NCBI RefSeq assembly: GCF_900115975.1
Contig: NZ_FOYM01000013.1
Coordinates: 1-64,000, forward strand
Direction of reading: 5' to 3'
Length of the DNA stretch: 64,000 nt
DNA from: Desulfoscipio geothermicus DSM 3669
GTDB lineage: Bacteria; Bacillota; Desulfotomaculia; Desulfotomaculales; Desulfallaceae
The position numbers were made by a program, and so were the translations under genes. Position 1 is the first letter of the stretch, and each line of letters starts with the position of its first letter. Below, one piece after another: positions 21,959 to 50,091 of the stretch. Below the pieces are notes generated by a model. The model saw only the letters and a program-made list of their open reading frames with translations, searched no databases and was not told the origin of the DNA.

Positions 21959-22373
21959 AAAAAAACAAAAAGGGGACTGGCTCCGGTAAAAAGGGGACAG
22001 GCACCGATTCACAAAACGAATCGGAGCCAGTCCCCTTTTACGGTGCCTATCTTGAAAATACTTTGTTGTCTTTGTGCGGTTACACCTGTCCCAACTCGCT
22101 CATAGGCTCTCGCGCCGACGGCACCAGCGGCTTGCTTTGGGCTCAACCGGACCGCCATAAACTCACCATCCATGGTTCGGGTTATGGCTCTCGCGGCCAT
22201 CCTGCTTGTGCCCGGAACGGGTAGCCGCTCGTCCGGTTTCGCACCTCGCTGCGCCGGGTGCCGTTACCGGCGCTCCCGCAAATCGCTCGACCGGGACAGG
22301 TGTAACCAGAGGTTTTTCATCCTCTGCTGGTGCCGTGCAGCGGTATGGGTGTCTGTCACCTTTTTGTTTTTTT
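21959..22373. mobile_element. 415-bp MITE/REP-like element with imperfect terminal inverted repeats
   Basis: The ends are inverted: AAAAAAACAAAAAGG at 21959-21973 is exactly complementary to 22359-22373, with weaker similarity about 11 bases further in. Inside the left end is a REP-like palindrome: AAAAGGGGACTGGCTCCG (about 21968-21985) pairs with CGGAGCCAGTCCCCTTTT (22022-22039), with a second GGGGACAGGCACC unit between. Such GGGGACA..TGTCCCC units are often linked to REP-associated (RAYT) transposases; none is encoded here. The rest is the foldable core listed next. No protein-coding gene is credible in this stretch. Confidence 0.65.
22078..22340. repeat. Foldable repeat core, copy A (possible structured RNA)
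   Basis: Related to copy B at 49821-50080 in the same strand orientation, with shared blocks such as TCGCGCCGAC, GGCTCTCGCGG (22186-22196) and CCGTTACCGG-like sequence. Nested pairing: P1 22078-22092 with 22293-22307 (15 bp, perfect); P2 ACGGCACC 22118-22125 with 22257-22264; P3 AACCGGAC 22145-22152 with 22231-22238; apical ATGGC/GCCAT around TCTCGCG. The paired sequences differ from copy B but remain complementary. A further hairpin, CAGAGG/CCTCTG, follows at about 22306-22326. Whether it is RNA, a DNA cruciform or a transposable end is not known. Confidence 0.6.
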
Positions 22374-49778: not shown

Positions 49779-49820
49779 AATAATCAACCCCTTTTTAATA
49801 TCCTGAACAATTGTGGTTAA

Positions 49821-50080
49821 GGGCCGGTGTGCTCCCCGCTGCGTTCAAAACTTTCGCGCCGACAGCACCAACGGCTCGTCCCGGTCAAAACCGGATCGCC
49901 CTCAATTCGCCGTTCTAGCTCAGTTCGGGCTCTCGCGGGCATCACGCCCGCTCGTTCGGTTTTGCCCAGGGCTTCGCCGGCTGCTGTTACCGGTGCTTTC
50001 GTACATCACTTGCGGGGAGCCACCGGCCCACTAGCATACTTTTTCATTATCTGCTGGCGGCGCGTTAGCGGCATGGGGGT
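49821..50080. repeat. Foldable repeat core, copy B
   Basis: Diverged copy of the core at 22078-22340. P1: GGGCCGGTG/CACCGGCCC plus CTCCCCGC/GCGGGGAG (49821-49839 with 50012-50029). P2: ACAGCA 49862-49867 with TGCTGT 49982-49987. P3: AAAACCGGAT 49887-49896 with GTTCGGTTTT 49954-49963 (with G-U pairs). Apex: GGCTCTCGCGG at 49928-49938, identical to copy A. It lies between a dctM stop and the pseudogene. The flanks do not show the AT-rich terminal repeats of copy A. Confidence 0.6.
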
Positions 50081-50091
50081 TTACCCTATTT

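Follow-up and report, generated by a model that had tools for sequence, protein, structure and literature searches.

The window, that is, the complete 64 kb stretch of DNA analysed here, carries two diverged nested palindromes (copies A and B), and the locus raises the question of what kind of element they represent. The original prediction described them as a repeat pair forming a new structured RNA or DNA element. Their sequence, coordinates and nested pairings were found as described there, with P2 reading ACGGCACC/GGTGCCGT in copy A and ACAGCA/TGCTGT in copy B, and with P3 and GGCTCTCGCGG found in both copies. The repeats are thus real: the two nested palindromes have diverged while changes in one arm are compensated in the other, and both fold far better than any shuffled sequence (z-scores of −4.4 and −6.5 for the two strands of copy A, −5.9 and −5.2 for those of copy B), on either strand, which palindromes are expected to do. 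The unit limits first assigned (22078–22340 and 49821–50080) were too narrow, as the full units extend from approximately 22048 to 22353 and from 49799 to 50081. The features are listed below, with bit scores for Rfam family RF01731 (TwoAYGGAY) and for covariance model R1, both of which are treated in the following paragraph.

21967–22047, no strand assigned: REP-like palindromes AAAAAGGGGAC(A/T)GGC..., directly left of copy A
22048–22353, minus strand: whole unit of copy A, TATCTTGAAAA... to ...GGGTGTC, within a terminator/REP-like hairpin, GGTGCC^TGTCACCTTTTT
22078–22092, no strand assigned: left arm of outer stem P1 of copy A, GGTTACACCTGTCCC
22112–22125, no strand assigned: left arm of core ring P2 of copy A, GCGCCGACGGCACC, covarying across families
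22142–22241, minus strand: apical TwoAYGGAY domain of copy A (R1 52.6 bits, E 6e-9; RF01731 28.8 bits)
22168–22173, minus strand: hairpin 2 loop of copy A, AUGGAU, kept
22199–22203, minus strand: hairpin 1 loop motif of copy A, AGGAU, kept in a loop that is ∼20 nt larger
22257–22273, no strand assigned: right arm of core ring P2 of copy A, GGTGCCGTTACCGGCGC, covarying across families
22293–22307, no strand assigned: right arm of P1 of copy A, a perfect 15 bp complement of the left arm
49799–50081, minus strand: whole unit of copy B, TATCCTGAACA... to ...GGGGGTT
49821–49839, no strand assigned: left arm of outer stem P1 of copy B
49886–49964, minus strand: apical domain of copy B, a TwoAYGGAY homologue (R1 57.7 bits, E 5e-10; RF01731 20.7 bits)
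50012–50029, no strand assigned: right arm of outer stem P1 of copy B

At the Rfam gathering score, the window gave no match besides one tRNA, and eight copies from the window's own genome gave none. In a permissive Rfam scan the best match of copy A was RF01731 (28.8 bits, 22149–22234, minus strand), which was also the sole match at copy B (20.7 bits, E 0.83, minus strand); neither copy reaches the RF01731 gathering threshold of 43 bits, which is a score line drawn by curators and not a biological feature. Relatives that align with the window copies (alignment A1) do pass this threshold, with 56.6, 46.2 and 43.8 bits. Model R1, for which twelve apical domains from genomes other than the window's were used, detected eight places in the window's genome and exactly two in the 64 kb window, namely copy B (E 5e-10) and copy A (E 6e-9), both matched over the full length of the model (1–79). 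As the only two R1 matches in 64 kb are copies A and B, chance is excluded, and together with the above-threshold relatives these matches indicate that both copies descend from TwoAYGGAY. Other sub-threshold matches (miRNA, guanidine-III and similar) were at chance level, and HEARO, group I/II introns and IStron had no Rfam support at gathering score.

R1 and alignment A1 show the apical domains of copies A and B to be homologous to TwoAYGGAY throughout and equal in structure, with two hairpins on a closing stem, an outer extended stem, and agreement in strand and register. They depart from the TwoAYGGAY norm in scoring below the gathering threshold and in their loops: copy A retains both A(N)GGA(Y) loops, the first one enlarged, whereas copy B has lost both (now GUGAU and UAGAAC) and is unique in this respect among the 45 aligned copies. 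Copy A is therefore a diverged member of TwoAYGGAY and copy B a decayed relative, probably inert after the loss of both GGA loops. TwoAYGGAY was listed as a probable RNA by Weinberg in 2010 (PMC2864571), the searched part of which does not mention mobility.

Instead of a repeat pair, BLAST searches revealed a dispersed family. Copy A matched 14 places in its own 3.65 Mb genome, and a B-type copy matched 45, many of which were single arms; matches of this type were present in 15 of 60 related genomes, some of them from other families of the order. Of 120 related genomes, 28 carry RF01731 itself; four of these have 21 copies or more, and within a single genus its copy number ranged from 1–3 up to at least 21. 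The copies have in common a conserved ring, on the minus strand GCGCCGGTAACRGSAC... and ...GTSCYGTCGGCGC, around which the outer stem and the centre are variable, and the base pairs of this ring change jointly, for example ACAGCACC/GGTGCTGT, ACGGCACC/GGTGCCGT and ACGGGACT/AGTCCCGT. Five copies (L033, L035, L039, L032 and L013) have a near-identical core and wholly different, yet perfectly complementary, outer stems; such differences could have arisen by insertion at the apex of a hairpin or by copying from arm to arm.

Mobility of the family was evident in relatives. Core elements of genome G055, which belongs to another genus than genome G026 (below), share the core ring under an apex other than TwoAYGGAY and have the shell ends GTAAATATTCAGT; they correspond to precise empty orthologous sites in congeners and show 8 bp target duplications such as AACTGTTT and TACGCGCG, with G037 as the empty-site reference for the former and G023 for the latter. 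Small elements of ∼75–360 bp with the same ends were also noted in G055 (L151–L170), having 8 bp duplications where checked and differing palindromic interiors. In genome G026, whose TwoAYGGAY units have the ends CAGASTGTNGACAAA, most units stand between two direct copies of an entire hairpin, as a rule with a T run after it (e.g. CAATCCCTTGATTTTTATCAAGGGATTA twice); the flanking repeat scores reach 28, and 13 of the 18 copies exceed the control maximum of 12. At the L214 site, the congener G072 carries a single hairpin and lacks the element, a difference of 289 bp, while at the L208 site in G087 the left flank ends at a single hairpin and the flank spacing is too small for the element; some further empty-site alignments were unreadable because of sequence divergence. 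The relatives in G055 and G026 thus display precise insertion, target duplication and empty sites, by which MITEs are recognized.

The element ends vary by lineage, which blurred an automatic flanking-repeat search at one copy per genome, and the relatives searched included no second genome of the window's genus. The units of the window's own genome lie inside REP-like hairpins at GCC^TGTC(C/A)CC, and such REP hairpins are also present elsewhere in this genome intact and without the unit (L036). Clear inverted repeats or a target duplication were not evident for the own-genome shell (TATCCTGAAAA...GTC). Several copies hint at an IS110-like CT core at both unit ends, but it is not claimed here, as copy B departs from the pattern. 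REP-like hairpins of the form AAAAGGGGACAGGC...GCCTGTCCCCTTTT (21967–22047; L027, L029, L034, L036) occur in large numbers, nested within the elements and in their surroundings, and several near-identical larger units with a different apex were all found inserted at GCC^TGTCCCC.

A candidate mobilizer was found for the G026 units, as their ends CAGASTGTNGACAAA also bound a 1607 bp insertion sequence in the congener G087, which is present in five copies, each between two copies of a hairpin. Its protein is a transposase of the IS1182 family (Pfam; NF033551, 447.6 bits at a cut-off of 270). In one of these elements (L251) the transposase frame has no stop inside the element and continues into the flanking hairpin, and the open-frame lengths vary by copy between 515 and 722 aa. 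Ends in common with a transposase-bearing element were found for G026, but not for the window's genome or the G055 shell. In the window's own genome no IS1182 gene scored above cut-off, and no transposase-bearing copy with the ends GTAAATATTCAGT was found in G055 or G037. What had appeared to be a 2 kb autonomous element in G055 (L161) turned out to be a permease-like gene with a small element on either side, and an IS1182 element of the same genome was rejected as mobilizer of its shell on account of its different ends. IS1272, a member of the IS1182 family, has been shown to target stem-loops (PMC5678879), and the model given there includes a mode in which the stem-loop is duplicated at both ends, in keeping with the arrangement in G026 and G087. 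In contrast, IS1272 itself reportedly replaces the hairpin without duplication (PMC5678879), and in the present case, seen in G026, the ends also serve a short element without coding capacity.

Taken together, these data make it probable that copies A and B are decayed, non-autonomous, MITE-like representatives of a mobile family of nested palindromes that carry TwoAYGGAY, would bind CsrA when well kept and, in one genus, would be mobilized by an IS1182-family element; that the two copies are decayed transposable elements is the most likely reading. The innermost domain corresponds to the TwoAYGGAY RNA with its two GGA-loop hairpins on one strand, and a well-kept domain, once transcribed, would most likely bind a CsrA dimer. 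The palindromic DNA is part of a mobile element which in the one genus, judging by ends and targets, would be moved in trans by the IS1182-family transposase, and this transposase would attack hairpins, mostly transcription terminators, the whole hairpin being duplicated in the process. The claim of a new element without a named family is superseded: the copies belong to the TwoAYGGAY lineage, an Rfam family match, which the original prediction had named as contrary evidence, was found, and the family consists of transposable elements.

Another account, which we regard as possible but doubtful, is that of a purely DNA-borne transposable palindrome, in which the transposase needs the hairpin or cruciform, the matched changes arise by arm-to-arm copying, and the RNA has no role. 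It agrees with the mobility seen in relatives, with outer stems that are wholly unlike between copies and still complementary, and with the G055 and L027-type units, which keep the core ring under other apices. Mismatches in the outer arms are likewise symmetric (62 G-U versus 70 A-C), so that the ‘compensatory’ arm changes may stem from a palindrome at the DNA level or from copying between the arms; selection on secondary structure, as put forward in the original prediction, is supported for the covarying apical domain, and the outer arms alone show no signature of strand-specific RNA folding. The apical domain speaks against this account. Among 43 distinct sequences, 245 cells with changes on both sides of a pair were counted versus 62 in shuffles, a signal that was lost when the partners were slid. 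Apical pairs showed 35 G-U to 11 A-C, with the G-U excess on the strand of the GGA loops, and GGA was present in both loops, on that one strand only, in 35 of 45 copies despite the changes in the stems. All of these apical counts were taken from related sequences aligned by fitting to the model, and they tally sequences, not independent events. Moreover, the loops read ACAGGAYGU, which corresponds to the CsrA-type motif reported by Gardner and Eldai (PMC4333381), who predicted CsrA binding of TwoAYGGAY from its loops.

The same authors proposed a CsrA-sequestering sRNA role for TwoAYGGAY (PMC4333381), and a host regulatory sRNA of the CsrB/RsmZ type that is incidentally multi-copy would suit this earlier prediction, the two covarying GGA hairpins and the co-occurrence with csrA, which 23 of the 28 family-bearing genomes possess, versus 45 of the 92 in which the family was not found (Fisher p 0.002, without phylogenetic correction). 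In G002, a 95% complete genome, csrA was not found despite six family matches at E ≤ 0.001. Such a host role is nevertheless unlikely given the copy number, which in a single genus spans 1–3 to 21 or more, the empty sites and hairpin duplications, the varied neighbours, and decayed copies such as B; CsrB/RsmZ-type RNAs do share the hairpin-loop GGA and the paired sites, whereas TwoAYGGAY elements have two sites only, are mobile and multi-copy, and their CsrA binding is here a prediction. A bidirectional terminator or cis-regulatory element of dctM genes must be considered very unlikely. Copies A and B do lie 3' of dctM (PF06808) at 142 and 12 bases, as noted originally, and a third copy (L004) is likewise 3' of a dctM gene, but other copies adjoin genes for NAD synthase, TatD, a CtpA-like protein, ABC-F and a sigma factor, and the G026 copies insert into pre-existing terminators. 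The orientation opposite to dctM that had been claimed for both copies applies to copy A alone: the RNA-like strand, minus at either copy, runs antisense to dctM at A but in the sense direction at B. An unrelated new structured RNA family, as first proposed, would accord with the lack of a gathering-score match other than the tRNA in the window, yet it is refuted by the RF01731 matches below threshold, correctly placed and on the correct strand in either copy, by the above-threshold homologues and by model R1, and its probability is close to nil.

Three of the eight TwoAYGGAY-bearing copies of the window's genome lie within ∼450 bp 3' of dctM (21936 and 50092 in the window; C32:7114), this genome having only 16 dctM matches; two of the three were noticed beforehand in the original prediction, so that any statistics on this association would be post hoc.

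Returning to decayed mobile palindromes as the preferred reading, the loop motif and the csrA co-occurrence suggest that well-kept TwoAYGGAY copies probably bind CsrA. The two window copies themselves are ordinary, and it is the family-level link that is noteworthy: the literature searched contained no link between TwoAYGGAY, terminator hairpins and IS1182 transposition, and the tie of an RNA family predicted to bind CsrA to transposition that targets hairpins, with spread as a transposable element and partly into terminators, appears to be undescribed. A named but unexplained RNA family is thereby classed among transposable elements and provided with a candidate mobilizer and a candidate target rule (terminator hairpins), and two proposals become testable, namely CsrA binding by TwoAYGGAY and the recognition of hairpins by enzymes of the IS1182 family. 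More speculatively, TwoAYGGAY might be a self-spreading CsrA-binding site, IS1182-type insertion into terminators duplicating the terminator and adding, with every jump, a CsrA-binding 3' tail or a decoy to a host transcript, which would rewire or titrate the CsrA regulon. The results also advise caution, as covariation in palindromic bacterial repeats does not necessarily denote a host regulatory RNA, and the ratio of G-U to A-C mismatches, even in the arms but skewed in the apex, points to a simple test for distinguishing a DNA palindrome from an RNA.

Like REP/BIME and other bacterial MITEs, the elements are dispersed, palindromic, intergenic and non-coding; they differ in being longer, in their nested rings and in the conserved apical RNA domain, REP-like hairpins serving here as the insertion site. 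Bacillaceae-1 (RF01690), of whose strand its discoverers were unsure and whose reverse complement carries CsrA-type loops (PMC4333381), may be another mobile palindrome.
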